Of a stretch of 33,303 nucleotides of DNA, positions 325-8,142 are shown piece by piece (the stretch's first letter is position 1; each line of letters starts with the position of its first letter). Both the position numbers and the translations under genes were made by a program. Source of the DNA: Bacteroidota bacterium. Lineage in GTDB: Bacteria > Bacteroidota > Bacteroidia > CAILMK01 > JAAYUY01. Location: the NCBI GenBank assembly GCA_018698135.1, contig JABINZ010000072.1:1-33303 (forward strand). The letters are read 5' to 3'. Below the pieces are notes generated by a model. It saw only the letters and a list, made by a program, of their open reading frames with translations, did not search any database and had not been told where the DNA came from.

Positions 325-1602
325 CTATTTAGTGGGTAGGATTTTAGTAATACTTTCGCCAAAACCAATTCTTACATCTTCATTTTGAGCATAAGCTTGC
401 ATGATAATTTGGTCATTATCTGCGATAAATTTCCGTTCTGAACCATCAGGGAATATAATTGGATTTTGACCTTTCCAACTTAATTCCAGCATCGATCCAA
501 AGGAATCTTTTGTAGGTCCGCTAATTGTTCCAGAGGCGCATACATCTCCAATTTGAATATTGCAGCCGTTAGCTGTATGATGGGCAAGCTGTTGACTCAT
601 ATTCCAATAAAGATATTTAAAATTAGACTGACAAACCCGATGTGCTTTTTTTCCATCTGGCTGAATAAAAACATCTAAATTTATATCGAAACTTTTTTCT
701 CCTTCAAAAGAAAGGTAGGGAAGGATGGGGGTATCCTGCTCTGGTCCTTTGGTTCGGAAAGGTTCAAGAGCATCCATTGTAACTATCCAGGGTGAGACAA
801 CAGAACCGAAATTCTTCCCCAAAAAGGGGCCAAGTGGCACATACTCCCATTTTTGAATATCTCTGGCAGACAAATCATTGAAAATAAACATGCCAAAAAT
901 ATAATTTTCTGCATCATGAGAAGAAACAGAATCACCTAATTCACTGTCTTTACCAACCACAAATGCCATTTCAAGTTCAAAATCCATTTGTTGAGTAGGT
1001 CCAAAATGAGGATTAGTATTTTCGCCCTTTAATTGACCTTTTGGTCTGTGAATGTTGGTATTCGATACAACAATTGAACTGCTTCGACCATGATATGCAA
1101 CGGGCATATGAGACCAATTTGGCAAAAGAGCATTTGCCGGATCTCTAAACATTATGCCCACATTGGTTGCATGTTCTTTACTGGAATAAAAATCAGTATA
1201 ATCGCCAATATTAACAGGTAAAAGCAATTCCACATCGTTTAGTTGGTAAAGCACGGTGGTTTTGTGTTTCTCACTATTTTTGAGAATATTACTATTGGAT
1301 TCAAATATTTCTGAAATTCGACTCCTTATGTTTCGAACAGCTGGTTTCCCCAATTCAATAAAATCGTTTAGTTTACATTGTCTAAAGGCTAGCATGTCCT
1401 TAAATCCTAAACCAAGATTATCAAAATAGCCAAATTCAGCAAGAGCGCTGAGGTCAATAATATGATCTCCAATCCGTGTTCCAACACGAGAGTTTAGTCC
1501 GGACGGTTTAATAATCCCAAATGGGATGTTTTGGATTGGGAAATCGCTATCCTTACTTGTTGCTAGCCAGGATTTTAGTTTTGGATTATTTGCTTTAATC
1601 AT
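325..1602 (-). CDS. fahA: Fumarylacetoacetase
   Basis: This cytoplasmic enzyme hydrolyses 4-fumarylacetoacetate to fumarate and acetoacetate, the last step of tyrosine/homogentisate breakdown. The 425-residue length is usual for the family. The N-terminal SH3-like domain covers about residues 1-125 and the metal-dependent catalytic domain the rest. Comparison with the mouse enzyme places the metal ligands at D137 (in DYTDFYSS), E209 and E211 (DFELEM) and D243 (FNDLSARDIQKWEY). The catalytic histidine would be H144 and the active-site lysine K263. The motif PNWSHMPVAYHGRSSS and the C-terminal ASGTISGP are also typical. It lies 8 bp downstream of hppD in the same operon. No maleylacetoacetate isomerase gene is present beside it, so that step must be encoded elsewhere or be dispensable. 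Confidence 0.97.
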   Translation of the reverse strand: MIKANNPKLKSWLATSKDSDFPIQNIPFGIIKPSGLNSRVGTRIGDHIIDLSALAEFGYFDNLGLGFKDMLAFRQCKLNDFIELGKPAVRNIRSRISEIFESNSNILKNSEKHKTTVLYQLNDVELLLPVNIGDYTDFYSSKEHATNVGIMFRDPANALLPNWSHMPVAYHGRSSSIVVSNTNIHRPKGQLKGENTNPHFGPTQQMDFELEMAFVVGKDSELGDSVSSHDAENYIFGMFIFNDLSARDIQKWEYVPLGPFLGKNFGSVVSPWIVTMDALEPFRTKGPEQDTPILPYLSFEGEKSFDINLDVFIQPDGKKAHRVCQSNFKYLYWNMSQQLAHHTANGCNIQIGDVCASGTISGPTKDSFGSMLELSWKGQNPIIFPDGSERKFIADNDQIIMQAYAQNEDVRIGFGESITKILPTK

Positions 1603-1610
1603 ACGTAATT

Positions 1611-2714
1611 TTATAGTGTTCCTCTTTTTGATTGTTCTAATTCGATGGCTTCAAATAAAGCTTTGAAATTGCCTTTTCCAAATGATTTAGCACCTTTTCT
1701 TTGAATAATTTCATAAAATACAGTGGGTCTGTCCTCAACAGGCTTCGTAAACAATTGAAGAAGGTAGCCTTCGTCATCCTTATCAATTAAAATCCTCAAT
1801 TCCTTAAGAATGTTTATGTCTTCTTCTATCAGTCCAACTCGATCTAATACAGTTTCATAATATGAATCTGGAACATGCAAAAACTCAACTCCTCTTGCAC
1901 GAAGTTCTGTGATTGTTTGAATGATATTATCTGTTGCCATAGCAACATGCTGCACGCCAGCTCCTTTATAGAAATCAATATATTCTTCGATCTGTGATTT
2001 ACGCTTTCCTTTAGCAGGTTCGTTTATTGGAAATTTAATACGTCCATTTCCATTCGACATCACCTTGCTCATCAAGGCAGTGTATTCTGTGGAAATGTCA
2101 TTATCATCAAATGAGATAATTTGTTTGAATCCCATGACATTGGAATAAAAATCAACCCATGTGTTCATTTCACCCCAACCAACATTTCCAACCATATGGT
2201 CTACATATTTCAATCCGACATCTTTAGGTTGGTACGCAGGTTCCCATTTCACAAAACCAGGCAAAAATGTTCCTTTGTAATTCTTTCTTTCAACAAAAAT
2301 ATGGACGGTTTCGCCATAGGTGTAAATACCTGCAAGCACTACTTCGCCATGTTCATCTTTTTCAGTGCGAGGCTCAAAATAGGATCGTGCACCTCTTTTT
2401 ATCGTTTCTTCATAGGATTTTCGTGCATCATCAACCCATAAGGCTACTTCTTTTACTCCATCGCCATGCTGTTTTACATGATCTGCAATTTTAGAATCAG
2501 GAATTAATGCAGTTGTCAGAACTAATCTAATTTTATCTTGCACCAATACATAGGAGGTCTTTTCCTTATTTCCTGTTTCAAGACCACTATAGGCCAGCGG
2601 CTGAAATCCAAAAGCTGTTTGGTAATAAAAGGCAGCTTGTTTCGCATTTCCAACATAGAATTCAATATAATCGGTCCCATCAATAGGTAAAAAATCTTCT
2701 GTTTTTTTGTTCAT
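1611..2714 (-). CDS. hppD: 4-hydroxyphenylpyruvate dioxygenase
   Basis: This Fe(II)-dependent dioxygenase converts 4-hydroxyphenylpyruvate to homogentisate with loss of CO2. The 367 residues form two VOC (glyoxalase-fold) halves, roughly 12-145 and 168-340. The 2-His-1-Glu iron ligands are H173 (KYVDHMVGNV), H256 (GVQHVAMAT) and E335 (TVFYEIIQR). The C-terminal signature SFGKGNFKALFEAIE is diagnostic. The gene sits between hmgA (12 bp upstream) and fahA (8 bp downstream), giving steps two to four of tyrosine catabolism in one transcript. The aminotransferase that makes its substrate is not in the window. Confidence 0.97.
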   Translation of the reverse strand: MNKKTEDFLPIDGTDYIEFYVGNAKQAAFYYQTAFGFQPLAYSGLETGNKEKTSYVLVQDKIRLVLTTALIPDSKIADHVKQHGDGVKEVALWVDDARKSYEETIKRGARSYFEPRTEKDEHGEVVLAGIYTYGETVHIFVERKNYKGTFLPGFVKWEPAYQPKDVGLKYVDHMVGNVGWGEMNTWVDFYSNVMGFKQIISFDDNDISTEYTALMSKVMSNGNGRIKFPINEPAKGKRKSQIEEYIDFYKGAGVQHVAMATDNIIQTITELRARGVEFLHVPDSYYETVLDRVGLIEEDINILKELRILIDKDDEGYLLQLFTKPVEDRPTVFYEIIQRKGAKSFGKGNFKALFEAIELEQSKRGTL

Positions 2715-2726
2715 CTTATCAATAAA

Positions 2727-3887
2727 TTAATCGTCTAACCAAGTTTTATAATAGTCCTTATCTTCCATTTGTAAAGCCTCTTTCGTTATTTTCAAGGCTT
2801 TAAAAGTATCGACCATAACGGCTAATTCATTTGTCTGCTTTTCGCCAATACTTTTTTCAACAGCTCCAGGATGTGGACCATGTGGAATTCCTATAGGATG
2901 TAAGGTAAATTGTCCTCTTTCAACATGTTTTCTACTCATAAATTCTCCATCTACGTAATACAAAACTTCATCCGAGTCTACGTTTGAGTGATTGTAAGGC
3001 GTAGGTATTGCTTCAGGGTGATAATCGTACAATCTTGGAACAAACGCACAAGTTACAAATCCATTTGCTTCAAATGTCTGATGAACAGGAGGGGGTTGAT
3101 GTACCCTGCCGGTAATAGGCTCAAAATCATGAATAGAAAGTGTATAGGGAAAATGATATCCATCCCACCCAATAACATCGAAAGGATGTGTCTCGTAATG
3201 ATAAGGATAAATTAAATCATCTTTTTTGATTTTTACTAAAAAATCACCTTTTTCATCAAAGGTCATTAGTTGTTCTGGTTTTTTTATATCTCTTTCATAA
3301 TAAGGTGCATGCTCCAATAATTGTCCGGCATCATTTATATATCTTTTTGGGAATCGGAAGGGTGAAAAAGATTCAACAATAAACAATCGATTATTCTCAG
3401 TGACAAATTCAAATTGGTGAATTACTCCTCTGGGTATTATTATGTGATCTCCTTCTTTAAAAGGAAGATTTCCATACATGGTTTTTAAAACACCATGACC
3501 CTCATGAACAAACACCATTTCATGAGCAGAGGAATTCTTGAAAAAATAGTCTGTCATTGATTTTTTAGGAGCTGCCAATAATATATACAGGTCACTATTC
3601 ACCAAAACAGCTATTCTGCTTTCCAAATAATCATCGATTGGTTTATGCTTAAAACCCTGAAAGCTGCGGTTCTGCATATTTTTATCCATTGCAATAGTGG
3701 GTGCGATGTCAATAGGCGAATCAATATGTAATACTTTGGTCGGAGGCTGCACATGATAAGTTAAGGAATAGGTATCTGAGAAACCTTCAGTAGAAACCAA
3801 CTGCTCAGCATACAAACTACCATCATCCTTTCTAAATTGTATATGACGTTTTAAAGGTATTTTTCCCAATTTATGGTAATGTGGCAT
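2727..3887 (-). CDS. hmgA: Homogentisate 1,2-dioxygenase
   Basis: This cupin-fold Fe(II) dioxygenase opens the ring of homogentisate to give maleylacetoacetate. The protein has 386 residues, somewhat shorter than the animal enzyme, as in many bacterial members. Two cupin halves are recognisable. The first has HEGHGVLKTMYGN near 128-140 and a metal-poor barrel. The catalytic half has the run GRVHQPPPVHQTFEANGF (260-277) followed by NHSNVDSDEVLYYVDGEF (299-316) and IPHGPHPGAVE (334-344). H300, D306 or E307, and H336 are the likely equivalents of the human iron ligands H335, E341 and H371. It is the first gene of the operon and diverges from the Old Yellow Enzyme gene. Confidence 0.95.
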   Translation of the reverse strand: MPHYHKLGKIPLKRHIQFRKDDGSLYAEQLVSTEGFSDTYSLTYHVQPPTKVLHIDSPIDIAPTIAMDKNMQNRSFQGFKHKPIDDYLESRIAVLVNSDLYILLAAPKKSMTDYFFKNSSAHEMVFVHEGHGVLKTMYGNLPFKEGDHIIIPRGVIHQFEFVTENNRLFIVESFSPFRFPKRYINDAGQLLEHAPYYERDIKKPEQLMTFDEKGDFLVKIKKDDLIYPYHYETHPFDVIGWDGYHFPYTLSIHDFEPITGRVHQPPPVHQTFEANGFVTCAFVPRLYDYHPEAIPTPYNHSNVDSDEVLYYVDGEFMSRKHVERGQFTLHPIGIPHGPHPGAVEKSIGEKQTNELAVMVDTFKALKITKEALQMEDKDYYKTWLDD

Positions 3888-4011: not shown

Positions 4012-5106
4012 ATGACAAAAATAAAGTTGCTCGAACCCTATAAAACAACTTACTTACAACTTAATAATAGAGTTGTAATGGCCCCATTGACCAGAAGGCG
4101 GGCTCAACAAGATGGTAGTCCTACTAAATTAAATGCAACATATTATCAACAAAGAGCGGGAGCAGGTTTAATCATAGCTGAGGCAACACAAATTTCAGCT
4201 TTTGCAAAAGGATATCCAGATACACCGGCAATCTATACAAAAAAACAAACAAATGCCTGGCAAAGAGTATGTGAAGCAGTACATGAAAAGGGTGGGAAAA
4301 TATTTCTGCAATTATGGCATGTAGGTCGCTATTCACATCCTGATTTGCTTCCAAAGAATATGCATCCTCAAGCTCCATCAGCTATAAAAATGAATGCATC
4401 TATTAATGTAGGGAATACTTATAAAGATTCTGTGATACCTAAAGAGTTATCCATTATTGAAATCAAAAAAATTATAAGTGATTTTCAATTTGCTGCAGAA
4501 AATGCTTTTCGTGCTGGATTTGATGGCATTGAGATTCATGGAGCTAATGGCTATCTCATAGACCAATTCCTGCAAGATGGCACTAATATTCGTAAAGACA
4601 TATATGGTGGTAGTATTGAAAACCGTTCTCGATTTTTATTTGAGATAATTGAGGCAATTGCTGAAGTTTGGAATAGCCAAAGAATTGGTCTTCGTTTATC
4701 ACCAAGTGGAACTAAAATGGAAATGTCTGATTCAAATTCGAAAAAGCATTTCACTTATGTTATTAATGAATTGAATAAATACAATTTAGCCTATTTGCAT
4801 TTGCTTGAGCCATGGCATGACGTTTCTAAGCTCAAAGGATATGCTACTGATGTTGCTGAGTTCTATCGCCCCATTTACAAAGGCACACTCATTGCCAGCG
4901 GGGGTTTTAGCCTACAAAGTGCTAATGATGCTATTTTAAATAAAACCGCTGATTTAGTTGCTTTTGGAAAAGCGTTCATTTCGAATCCTGATTTAGTAAA
5001 ACGTTTTGAACTAAATGCTCCATTAAACGAATGGGAGACAGATACTTTTTATGGAGGGGATGAAAAAGGCTATACAGATTATCCATTTCTGAAATTGCAA
5101 ATCTGA
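4012..5106 (+). CDS. Old Yellow Enzyme family alkene reductase (NemA-like)
   Basis: This FMN-dependent NAD(P)H oxidoreductase reduces activated C=C bonds, and some relatives also reduce nitro groups. The 364-residue length is that of the classical OYE class, a TIM barrel. The N-terminal segment NRVVMAPLTRRR (19-30) carries the FMN-contacting threonine T27. The signature EIHGANGYLIDQFLQDGTN (174-192), followed by YGGSIENRSRF, contains the substrate-anchoring H176/N179 pair and the proton donor Y181. LQLWHVGR near 99-106 is also conserved. It is divergent from hmgA and is followed by an ORF-less region, so it is probably a single-gene transcript. The physiological substrate is unknown. Its place next to the tyrosine operon is suggestive only. 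Confidence 0.95.
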   Translation: MTKIKLLEPYKTTYLQLNNRVVMAPLTRRRAQQDGSPTKLNATYYQQRAGAGLIIAEATQISAFAKGYPDTPAIYTKKQTNAWQRVCEAVHEKGGKIFLQLWHVGRYSHPDLLPKNMHPQAPSAIKMNASINVGNTYKDSVIPKELSIIEIKKIISDFQFAAENAFRAGFDGIEIHGANGYLIDQFLQDGTNIRKDIYGGSIENRSRFLFEIIEAIAEVWNSQRIGLRLSPSGTKMEMSDSNSKKHFTYVINELNKYNLAYLHLLEPWHDVSKLKGYATDVAEFYRPIYKGTLIASGGFSLQSANDAILNKTADLVAFGKAFISNPDLVKRFELNAPLNEWETDTFYGGDEKGYTDYPFLKLQI

Positions 5107-5234: not shown

Positions 5235-5266
5235 TTTGGTGGGAAAATGTTTCTAATCTATTTTTG
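5235..5266 (+). promoter_or_regulatory. Promoter in front of an ORF-less region
   Basis: TTTG (5235-5238), a 20-bp spacer and TATTTTTG (5259-5266) are a full match to the Bacteroidota sigma-factor consensus. A transcript would start near 5270-5275. No protein gene follows for 670 bp, which is the main reason to suspect a noncoding RNA gene. Two GGTGG-containing repeats (5226-5235 and 5238-5248) flank the -33 box. Confidence 0.58.
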
Positions 5267-5271
5267 AGTCA

Positions 5272-5879
5272 TCAAGTTTAAGAAGTAAACTAGATAACCG
5301 ATCAGGACTAAAGATCAGAAAAGTTAGCAATAATTTGGACACTTAAGTCAGGTTCATGACTTTGTCTCGCAAGGGGCAGTGTGGAGGGCCAGCGATTGAA
5401 GCCAGGGTTGTGAAATTATGAGTTTGCAAAAACAATTAACAGGCAACCAAATATGAATACAAGGCCGAAAGGCTGCGATCATGTTTATCGGGTATTGCAA
5501 TGGAAGCATCAGATGCTTGAAAGAGAAGAAGATGTGAAAATTGGGCTATAAGATTGAGAGCCGTTCGCGGTTTTTAACGCAGATCAGCCTGAAGAAGCAG
5601 GGATTTGGGCAGCCAAAGCTGTAACAGGTAGAGGAAAGAAGAATCTATACTTGACGATGAAAGCAGCAATGTTTTTGACGTAAGACTGTGTCAGAAAGGA
5701 GAGATGGAATCAGCTTATTGTAAAAGGTAGGCGGGCTGCAGATCAGATTTGTACATCAGAGCCTCGGCTTTGAAAAGAAAGGTCGGTTAACAAGCTTAGC
5801 TTGGCGCTTTAAAGATGCTACGGCAGAATTAAAGTAGAATGGGAGGTAGTCGAACAGATTGCTTCCCATTCGCCTTTTA
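5272..5879 (+). ncRNA. Candidate structured noncoding RNA, about 600 nt, family not recognised
   Basis: No frame on either strand stays open for more than about 60 codons here. From 5341 to 5820 the GC content is about 44%, against roughly 25-35% in adjoining noncoding DNA, and 5521-5700 is about 65% purine on this strand. A consensus promoter precedes the block and a 15-bp hairpin with four Ts closes it. Local hairpins are visible: 5275-5291 (6 bp), 5345-5362 (AAGTCA/TGACTT), 5463-5474 (GAAA tetraloop), 5559-5572 (TTCG loop), 5610-5621 and 5791-5803. I compared it by eye with tmRNA, RNase P RNA, 6S RNA, group I and group II introns and IscB-type guide RNAs and recognised none. The longest ATG-initiated frame I read, at 5453-5551, has 32 codons. 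A decayed mobile element is the main alternative. Confidence 0.45.
5837..5878 (+). terminator. Hairpin with short T-run ending the candidate RNA
   Basis: The arm 5837-5851 pairs with 5857-5871 over 15 positions, three of them G-T, around the loop GAACA. Four Ts follow at 5875-5878. The stem is strong but the T-run is short, so termination is likely rather than certain. It separates the ORF-less block from the relA promoter. Confidence 0.5.
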
Positions 5880-5889
5880 TATCCTCCCA

Positions 5890-5919
5890 TTGTCACCCTA
5901 TTTTCTTGCCCTAAATTTG
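5890..5919 (+). promoter_or_regulatory. Promoter of the RelA/SpoT-family gene
   Basis: TTG (5890-5892), a 19-bp spacer and TAAATTTG (5912-5919) match the Bacteroidota consensus. Transcription would start near 5925, about 20 nt before the ATG at 5944. This rules out the longer open frame from 5839, whose first codons also lie inside the preceding terminator hairpin. Confidence 0.6.
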
Positions 5920-5943: not shown

Positions 5944-8142
5944 ATGTATCGATTTTTAAATTTTTCTACTGAAAAAAATACTTTTTCAAGCAGTTACCGC
6001 TCCATTATTTCTGCCTTGGGAAATAATATTAATCGAGCTGAGCAATCGAAAATAAAGGAAGCATTTCGAATACTAATCAGCATTAGTGAGAAAAATACCA
6101 ATAACACGCATATTCAAGAGTCGATTGATAAAGCAAAAATTGCTATTAATGAACTTTATCTTGGCTACAGCTCAATTATTAGTATTTTGCTTTATGACTC
6201 CTATAAATTGAAGTTGATTTCCAAAATAGAATTGAAAGATAAATTTGCCCCCCAAATTATTAATATACTTGAAGATTTGGTACTGCTGGAAACAATTGAT
6301 ACTAAGAATAGCCAAAAACAAGCAGAAAATTTCATTCAACTTCTTTTAACATCGGTATCTGATGTTAGAGCAATTCTAATCAAATTAGTTGATCGTGTTT
6401 ACAAAATTCGAAGGTTAAATGAATATGCTGAACCTGAGAAAATTAAAATTGCCAAAGAATGCTATTATTTATACGTTCAAATAGCTCACAGGTTGGGATT
6501 ATATAAATTGAAGAATGAAATTGAAGATATTGCTTTTAGTTATATATACCCTGACGAATATGCTTCAATAAATGAATTATTAAAAAATACTTCATCTGAA
6601 TACAATGAATTTATCAGCACTTTTCTGGAACCAATTCATAAAGAATTACTCAGTCAGAAAATTGATTATGAAATCACGTGGAGAACAAAAACTGCACATT
6701 CGATATGGATGAAGATGAAAAAACAAAATGTTGAATTTGATCAAATTTTTGACATTTTTGCCATTCGTATAATTTTAAAATCAGTTTTAAAAGATGAGAA
6801 AGCAGCCTGCTGGCAGACTTATTCAATAATAACAAATATTTACGAACCCAATGCCAAACGTTTAAGAGATTGGATCAGTTTACCAAAAGAAAATGCGTAT
6901 GAATCGTTGCATATAACCGTTAAAAGCCCTTCTAACAAATGGGTTGAAATTCAAATTCGAACACAGCGAATGAACGAACAAGCTGAAAAAGGGCTTGCAG
7001 CTCATTGGAAATATAAAGGAGGAAAAACTGCTCAATGGTTTGAGAATTGGTTGGTAACTATCAGAGAACTATTTGAGGATCCAAATTCACAACTTCGTGA
7101 TTTAACTGCAACAAATACTTCAACAATAAAACCCGATGAAATATTTGTTTTTACTCCTCATGGAGATTTAGTCAAACTTAAAAATGGATCAACTGCGTTA
7201 GATATGGCCTTTAGTTTACATTCTGATCTAGGAGCTCGATGTTCAGGAGCTAAAGTAAATGGCAAAATAGTTAGTTTGAAACATCTTTTAGCAAATGGAG
7301 ATCAGGTTAGCCTGTTAACTAGTAAAAAACAAAAACCAAAAATAGATTGGTTGAGTTTTGTAAAAACAAATAAAGCAAAAAATAAAATAAAACGAATGCT
7401 TAAGGAGGATGAGCATTTGGAAGCTGAAAGAGGCAAAGAAATAATTAAAAGAAAATTCAGAAATTGGAAATTACCGTTTAATGATTCAACTATTAATTTC
7501 CTAATTAATCATTATAAGTTTAACAATGCTTTGGAGCTATACTCAAAAGTTGCAAATGAGGAGTTGGATGCATTAAAACTTAAAGAATTAATTAAATCCC
7601 AAAAAGAAAAGGAAAAGAAATTAAGTGAACCATTAATTAAACCAAAATCATCTAAACAAATTGATGATCAAGATCTTAAGAAAAGTATCAGTATTGAAGG
7701 TGCTATCATAAAAGATCTTATTTTTAGCTATGCAAAATGTTGTTCGCCCATACTAGGTGATTTAATTTCAGGCTTTATAACTATTCATAAAGGTATTAGC
7801 ATTCACAAGCAAAAATGCCCAAATGCATTACATATGCATAAGAATTTAGCCTATAGACAAGTAAACGTATATTGGATAAAAGCGCAAAGTGAGTTGAATT
7901 TTGAAGTGATACTGAAAATAACTGGTAAAGATGATATGGCCATGATTAGCAAAATAACTGATGTGGTTTCAAAAGAATTTAATATTCATATTAATGCTTT
8001 CAATGTGCATACGCATAAAATTAAGTTCGAAGGAATACTCTTGCTAAATGTAAGTGATACCAGTCAGCTGAACAGTTTGTTAGGCCGTATCAAAGCTATC
8101 AAAGGAATTGAAAAAGCTGTTCGAATTAATTCACTTGATTAG
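5944..8142 (+). CDS. Long RelA/SpoT-family (p)ppGpp synthetase with degenerate hydrolase site
   Basis: The 732-residue protein has the layout of a long RSH enzyme, which makes the stringent-response alarmone (p)ppGpp from ATP and GDP/GTP on starved ribosomes. Residues about 15-190 are an HD-type region, but the hydrolase HD pair reads YD (84-85) and the second conserved motif reads VDRVYKIRRL, so hydrolysis is probably lost. The synthetase domain, about 240-360, has FDIFAIRII (269-277), RLRD (306-309), NAYESLH (317-323), VEIQIRT (334-340) and AAHWKYKGG. A TGS domain follows at 398-460, then a Cys-containing segment with YAKCCSPILGD (596-606) and C625, and an ACT domain at about 650-732. RLRD is close to the RxKD form of bifunctional enzymes rather than the EFDD of E. 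coli RelA. The start at 5944 is set by the promoter at 5890-5919. Confidence 0.9.
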   Translation: MYRFLNFSTEKNTFSSSYRSIISALGNNINRAEQSKIKEAFRILISISEKNTNNTHIQESIDKAKIAINELYLGYSSIISILLYDSYKLKLISKIELKDKFAPQIINILEDLVLLETIDTKNSQKQAENFIQLLLTSVSDVRAILIKLVDRVYKIRRLNEYAEPEKIKIAKECYYLYVQIAHRLGLYKLKNEIEDIAFSYIYPDEYASINELLKNTSSEYNEFISTFLEPIHKELLSQKIDYEITWRTKTAHSIWMKMKKQNVEFDQIFDIFAIRIILKSVLKDEKAACWQTYSIITNIYEPNAKRLRDWISLPKENAYESLHITVKSPSNKWVEIQIRTQRMNEQAEKGLAAHWKYKGGKTAQWFENWLVTIRELFEDPNSQLRDLTATNTSTIKPDEIFVFTPHGDLVKLKNGSTALDMAFSLHSDLGARCSGAKVNGKIVSLKHLLANGDQVSLLTSKKQKPKIDWLSFVKTNKAKNKIKRMLKEDEHLEAERGKEIIKRKFRNWKLPFNDSTINFLINHYKFNNALELYSKVANEELDALKLKELIKSQKEKEKKLSEPLIKPKSSKQIDDQDLKKSISIEGAIIKDLIFSYAKCCSPILGDLISGFITIHKGISIHKQKCPNALHMHKNLAYRQVNVYWIKAQSELNFEVILKITGKDDMAMISKITDVVSKEFNIHINAFNVHTHKIKFEGILLLNVSDTSQLNSLLGRIKAIKGIEKAVRINSLD

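Follow-up and report, generated by a model that had tools for sequence, protein, structure and literature searches.

To our knowledge, bacteria have few large structured RNAs, and each of those known has given rise to a field of its own. OLE RNA is about 600 nt long, and its hosts, as far as is known, differ from those of the RNA described here. It forms homo-oligomers and has been proposed to sequester a ribosomal protein, and A-minor contacts and kissing loops hold the oligomers of OLE, ROOL and GOLLD together (PMC12286853). The genes for ROOL and GOLLD lie in phages and prophages, close to tRNA islands (PMC12286853). The Bacteroidetes motifs 6S-flavo (RF01685), Flavo-1, Bacteroidales-1 and Bacteroides-1 come from a comparative survey of 2010 (PMC2864571).

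The locus analysed here lies in a 33,303-nt stretch of DNA from a Bacteroidota bacterium, hereafter the window, between an Old Yellow Enzyme-type gene and a RelA/SpoT-family gene. The original prediction had read it as a large, independently transcribed structured RNA belonging to no known family. Comparative sequence data support this reading; the transcript itself is inferred, none having been observed. The absence of a known family held at gathering and at permissive thresholds: the window RNA had no match in Rfam 15 at the gathering level, a cmscan at E up to 10 with the RNAs of the window and its two closest relatives (family f1) returned no credible match, the four weak hits of the window being attributable to chance, and the homologues, at E up to 0.5-1, matched neither OLE, ROOL nor GOLLD, nor any of the Bacteroidetes motifs. 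We found no description of such an RNA in the open-licence literature that we searched. It represents a so far undescribed family of chromosomal RNAs, 290 to about 620 nt long, in the class of the window.

Predicted limits and fold of the RNA gene

The composition of the locus agrees with what had first drawn attention to it, namely raised GC, a purine-rich strand and the lack of a long open frame. The GC content is 0.438 over positions 5341-5820, against 0.339 for the window, purines make up 61%, and the longest stop-free run at 5235-5880 is 45 codons on the forward and 63 codons on the reverse strand. The coordinates of all features are given in Table 1.

The Bacteroidota-type promoter that had been claimed, TTTG-N20-TATTTTTG, is present, but its match alone lies within chance: 2.3 matches are expected per window, and the three observed were reached in 36 of 100 shuffles. 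It counts as evidence because it is conserved. In G001, from the same genus, the counterpart is TTTG-N20-TACTTTTG, with the RNA start at the same place as in the window, and in G003, from another genus of the same family, the -7 box is TACATTTG. The proposed gene of about 600 nt stands in size, with a start better placed at about 5269-5272 than at 5235; this start is predicted, without 5' mapping. At the other end, the described 15-bp hairpin with four Ts was recovered. Its loop, G(A/G)ACA, is conserved among the f1 RNAs, beyond the need of a plain terminator. Downstream of the terminator, the RelA-family gene has a plausible -7 box, TAAATTTG at 5912-5919, in line with the separate promoter suggested for it.

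The window RNA folded more stably than shuffled sequence on the forward strand (z-score -5.2), with a z-score of +0.2 on the reverse strand. A second run gave -4.5 and -0.2 on the two strands, respectively, for the window, -5.1 and -2.2 for G001, and -8.1 and -4.5 for G003. Single-sequence folds contained seven stable tetraloops in the window RNA (0.25 in its shuffles, at most 2), six in G001 and eight in G003; the shuffles averaged 0.25-0.55, and none had more than 2. Such an excess of tetraloops is a signature of folded RNA. The consensus of the window and G001 has 13 small apical loops, among them six GNRA, one UUCG and one UACG, which bears out the GAAA- and TTCG-capped hairpins noted at the outset. 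All six GNRA loops are GNRA in both species, three of them with a different GNRA in each; the UUCG loop of the window is CUUG in G001, and the UACG loop is identical in both.

Table 1 Features of the RNA locus and its flanking genes in the window
Feature	Position	Strand	Basis and remarks
Old Yellow Enzyme-type gene, upstream	4012-5106	+	Synteny kept in G001 and G003
Bacteroidota-type promoter, TTTG-N20-TATTTTTG	5235-5266	+	Pattern match; conserved in G001; -7 box in G003
Structured RNA gene, whole (predicted)	5269-5878	+	About 607 nt; first paired base 5272; fold z-score, covariation, homologues
P1 closing helix, 5' strand (TCAAGT..AAG)	5272-5282	+	Pairs with 5795-5804
GNRA hairpin (GCAA)	5322-5336	+	Loop kept in G001
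GNRA hairpin (GCAA)	5364-5377	+	Closing pair C-G becomes U-A in G001
Conserved core, CAGCGANTGAAGCCAGGGNTG	5390-5410	+	Common to G001 and G003; model R2 recovers all three
GNRA hairpin (GCAA; GTAA in G001)	5422-5433	+	Stem covaries
GNRA hairpin (GAAA; GCAA in G001)	5463-5474	+	Stem covaries
GNRA hairpin (GAAA; GTAA in G001)	5515-5525	+	Stem covaries
UUCG hairpin (CUUG in G001)	5556-5574	+	Three covarying pairs
GNRA hairpin (GCAA)	5661-5675	+	Stem covaries
P1 closing helix, 3' strand (CTT.GCTTGG)	5795-5804	+	Covariation, alignment
Hairpin B, UACG cap (CACG in G003)	5806-5835	+	Covaries; recurs in homologues outside f1
Terminal hairpin, 15 bp, intrinsic terminator	5837-5878	+	Hairpin 5837-5871, pentaloop GAACA (GGACA in G003); TTTT 5875-5878
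RelA/SpoT-family gene, downstream	5944-8142	+	Not kept in G003

Compensatory changes in the closest relatives

A blastn search with the window RNA against 60 relatives and 395 genomes of the class found only G001, the sole genome of the same genus among those searched, where the RNA is 70% identical over its whole length. The two matches in G001 are one locus, split across two contigs that overlap by 139 nt. Other matches in the class were short, with E of about 0.002 and above, and the RNA is single-copy in its own genome.

The RNAalifold structure of the window and G001 comprises 150 pairs, of which 24 are double-changed and none is broken. Shuffled alignments gave 12.1 double changes on average and never reached 24 in 500 trials, and sliding the partners by 1-3 columns left 0-3. 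The structure was predicted from those same two sequences, and the count is to that extent biased towards structure. In a refolding control with shuffled columns, 25 double changes arose in 7 of 100 cases, and the energy of the window/G001 fold was never reached.

A covariance model of the 3' domain (R1) found a further member in G003 (E 3e-7). Its RNA, the one with the z-score of -8.1, has P1 in its minimum-energy fold and carries the core CAGCGANTGAAGCCAGGG. In the three f1 sequences, 98% of the pairing in P1, hairpin B and the terminal hairpin is preserved, with double changes at 9 of the 34 pairs. A model of the conserved core (R2) gave nothing beyond these three members in a scan of the phylum; three other matches within the class lay inside coding frames and were discarded, leaving the f1 RNAs as its only genuine members.

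Homologues in other families

To look outside f1, we built a model of the 3' end from all three f1 RNAs (R3), ran it over the 395 genomes of the class and inspected all matching loci. It matched 24 genomes outside f1, ten of them at E <= 7e-6 (G135, G187, G096, G382, G362, G243, G064, G020, G217 and G132). These ten loci are intergenic, fall into five family-level groups (f18, f7, f5, f43 and f13) and have purine-rich, tetraloop-rich sequence upstream; most of them show a TAnnTTTG-like box followed directly by a strand complementary to the one that precedes hairpin B. The fourteen weaker matches (E >= 1e-5; L094-L108) were rejected, being mostly terminators directly behind coding frames. Eight members outside f1 contain three to six stable tetraloops, against 0.2-0.35 in shuffles. 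The single-sequence fold is only mildly better than shuffled in some members (z -0.8 in G132, -2.2 in G020).

The link between f1 and the other families consists of about 90 nt at the 3' end and a shared plan; the middle cannot be aligned across families. In the 12 best sequences, 95% of the pairing of the 3' structure is preserved, and 23 of 25 pairs are double-changed. This alignment was fitted to the model and is supporting, not independent, evidence. Swapping P1 strands between families did not discriminate, given the CAAG/CTTG theme common to all P1 helices. The word AGCTTGGCGC at the 3' strand of P1 is common to the window, f13 and f18.

Two further sets show structured RNAs on their own, with no input from the model of the window RNA. 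In f13, where blastn and R3 together located the RNA in seven of nine genomes, an alignment of the seven built by sequence only has 34 of 69 pairs double-changed (16.8 in shuffles, 0 of 500 reaching it; 4-12 with slid partners), including CCAAG/CTTGG, ACAAG/CTTGT and TCAAA/TTTGA in P1. In f43, a member found by R3 and used as a blastn query matched 66 of 301 genomes, nearly all of genus g88. Seventeen sequences of the short f43 form have 31 of 56 pairs double-changed (14.8 in shuffles, 9-13 with slid partners), with 101 changed cells against 29. P1 itself covaries in f1, in f13 and, at its outermost pair, in f43. Compensatory changes were present in four alignments, the opposite of the lack of such changes that the original prediction had named as grounds for refutation.

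Where they can be traced, the subfamilies share one order: promoter, 5' strand of P1, branched body, 3' strand of P1, hairpin, terminator. The 5' strand of P1 lies at or just after the predicted transcript start, and the hairpin behind the 3' strand mostly bears a UACG or CACG cap. The RNAs are about 290 nt long in f13 and 400 nt in f7; those of f43 measure 350 or about 620 nt, and those of f1 565-610 nt. The f43 RNAs are conserved at their ends but differ, within one genus, in the length of the middle, which suggests that domains come and go. The extra middle of the long f43 form, about 250 nt, contains degenerate repeats with ATCAGCRTTCGC-like words (L131:1500-2115, L135:1500-2120, L140:990-1600). 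About ten f43 genomes appear to hold two or more copies of the RNA; L120:679-1852 holds a tandem pair of complete copies on the same strand, each with its own promoter-like box.

On this evidence the RNA family seems to extend over at least six families of the class, which the promoter type and the named records of related proteins suggest to be Bacteroidia. The model E-values are rough and per genome, and the counts are lower bounds, the true spread being wider; R3, for example, missed a copy in G303 that blastn found. As detected, the distribution is patchy and does not point to a universal housekeeping role. Searches of phage, plasmid and viral-contig collections yielded no copies; patterns run on viral contigs gave chance matches only.

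Genomic neighbourhood and rival readings

G001 has the same gene order as the window, Old Yellow Enzyme, RNA, RelA. In G003, the RNA closely follows the Old Yellow Enzyme gene, on whose far side HmgA is found, and RelA is not downstream. A synteny search by the RelA protein did not place the RNA beside relA outside the genus, and one by Old Yellow Enzyme returned the same three loci and one more distant homologue that lacks the RNA. Within a subfamily the neighbouring genes are mostly the same; from one subfamily to another they differ: Old Yellow Enzyme in f1, a FAD-oxidoreductase-like gene in f13, and in f43 genes that we take, from our own reading of the sequences, to be PhoH-like and TIGR03915-like. 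Among 19 homologue loci scanned for tRNAs, only one had any adjoining, with three tRNA genes in a row beside an f43 copy (L128:553-904).

Several observations concern the neighbouring genes themselves. A tyrosine degradation operon (fumarylacetoacetase, 4-hydroxyphenylpyruvate dioxygenase, HmgA-like) adjoins the Old Yellow Enzyme gene on the reverse strand of the window at 325-3887, and its HmgA-like gene is kept beside Old Yellow Enzyme in G001 and G003. Directly downstream of the RNA in G003 lies a restriction/defence island with a 1492-aa methylase-like, a KilA-N-like and a 1124-aa helicase gene (L064:3198-11887). The window genome has two long RelA/SpoT homologues, the one at 5944-8142 and another at G000:C195:23714-25876 (L052), which adjoins Fur-like and adenylosuccinate synthetase genes; G005 (L049) has the same arrangement. 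Metagenome-assembled contigs titled Rickettsia typhi and Rhizobium sp. (L008, L009), names that may be wrong, encode RelA relatives with about 30% identity to the protein of the window.

The position of the RNA directly upstream of the RelA-family gene, in both the window and G001, would fit a cis-acting leader such as a riboswitch or attenuator. Yet a terminator ends the RNA before a separate -7 box, and the differing neighbours of the other families indicate a stand-alone gene rather than a leader. The RelA neighbour of the window RNA is incidental, and a leader, which the arrangement in G003 already contradicts unless the function has changed, is very improbable. Even less can be said for the decayed remains of a protein gene, a mobile intron or a repeat element, for which about 600 bp without an open reading frame might be taken to speak. 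The original prediction had named a protein relic as grounds for refutation; the 192 substitutions between the window and G001 are spread evenly over codon phases (71/65/56), stops abound in every frame, and no open reading frame is conserved. There is no Rfam intron match, the RNA is single-copy in its own genome, its synteny is conserved and its pairs show compensatory changes; this reading, too, is already contradicted.

Two further rivals are a sponge RNA and a base-pairing regulator. Short repeated motifs, of the ATCAG type in the long forms, might sequester an RNA-binding protein as CsrB does with CsrA: ATCAG occurs seven times in the window RNA and six times in one long f43 form, against 0.8 and 1.1 in shuffled sequence, and the long f43 forms have their degenerate repeats in a middle of variable length within one genus. 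The same word is not enriched in the short forms of G020, G362 and G096, however, and helices and tetraloops are also conserved beyond the repeats, a hint that the RNA is more than an array of binding sites; we consider such a sponge unlikely. The stretches with little or no change, CAGCGANTGAAGCCAGGG in f1 and GACGTACTTTGACA in f43, could instead be unpaired segments through which a regulator pairs with mRNAs, but they differ between families, and the size and tetraloop density would be unusual for a base-pairing sRNA, which leaves this somewhat less likely still. Ahead of both we place a structural RNA or RNP scaffold; none of these readings has been tested.

Discussion

The comparisons demonstrate conservation of a predicted promoter, fold and terminator; transcription and action in trans are inferred. 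The RNA gene proposed at the outset stands, and the finding is larger than was proposed, since neither the class-wide family nor the incidental nature of the RelA neighbour had been foreseen. As far as comparative sequence analysis can tell, this is almost certainly a real structured RNA family.

By comparative sequence, the RNA has its own promoter, and P1 joins the 5' and 3' ends of its body. The multi-branched body carries hairpins capped mostly by GNRA or other stable tetraloops, a YACG-capped hairpin and the terminator follow directly after P1, and base pairs are kept through compensatory changes. In the mechanism that we prefer, the transcript, if made as inferred, would act in trans as a folded object, most likely scaffolding a ribonucleoprotein or an assembly of RNAs that tetraloop and A-minor contacts would hold together. 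So dense a set of GNRA loops suggests docking over long range, as in ribozymes, OLE, ROOL and GOLLD, and is the reason for which a structural RNA or RNP scaffold is preferred; the tertiary contacts are untested. With no data on a protein partner, target or phenotype, the scaffold mechanism on its own remains tentative and falls a little short of an even chance. Structural family and scaffold mechanism taken as one claim earn our moderate confidence.

The family is absent from Rfam 15, shows strong covariation, and is immediately amenable to cloning, probing and deletion. It also illustrates how an RNA gene widespread in a well-sequenced class escapes searches that rely on blastn and Rfam alone.

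Among large stable RNAs, RNase P RNA (RF00010) and tmRNA (RF00023) resemble the window RNA in being just that, but neither matches at the window RNA, and canonical copies of both, scoring above the curated cut-offs, lie elsewhere in G000, G001 and G003. 6S-flavo, Flavo-1, Bacteroidales-1 and Bacteroides-1 are structured RNAs of the same phylum, yet none has a member that matches at permissive thresholds. OLE RNA (RF01071) comes close in size, at about 600 nt, and in its elaborate multi-branched fold, although the window RNA has no covariance-model match to it. ROOL (RF03087) and GOLLD (RF02032) are likewise orphan RNAs of large size, in which hairpins are numerous and A-minor and loop contacts abound (PMC12286853). 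The window family differs from them in lacking an Rfam match and in its stable chromosomal contexts, with no phage, viral-contig or plasmid copies found. Our best guess is a trans-acting structural RNA that may work like OLE, ROOL and GOLLD while being unrelated to them. A bolder conjecture, which we regard as doubtful, would make it their class-wide chromosomal counterpart: an RNA forming an ordered particle, alone or with protein, with a conserved cellular role and a middle domain that is gained and lost.
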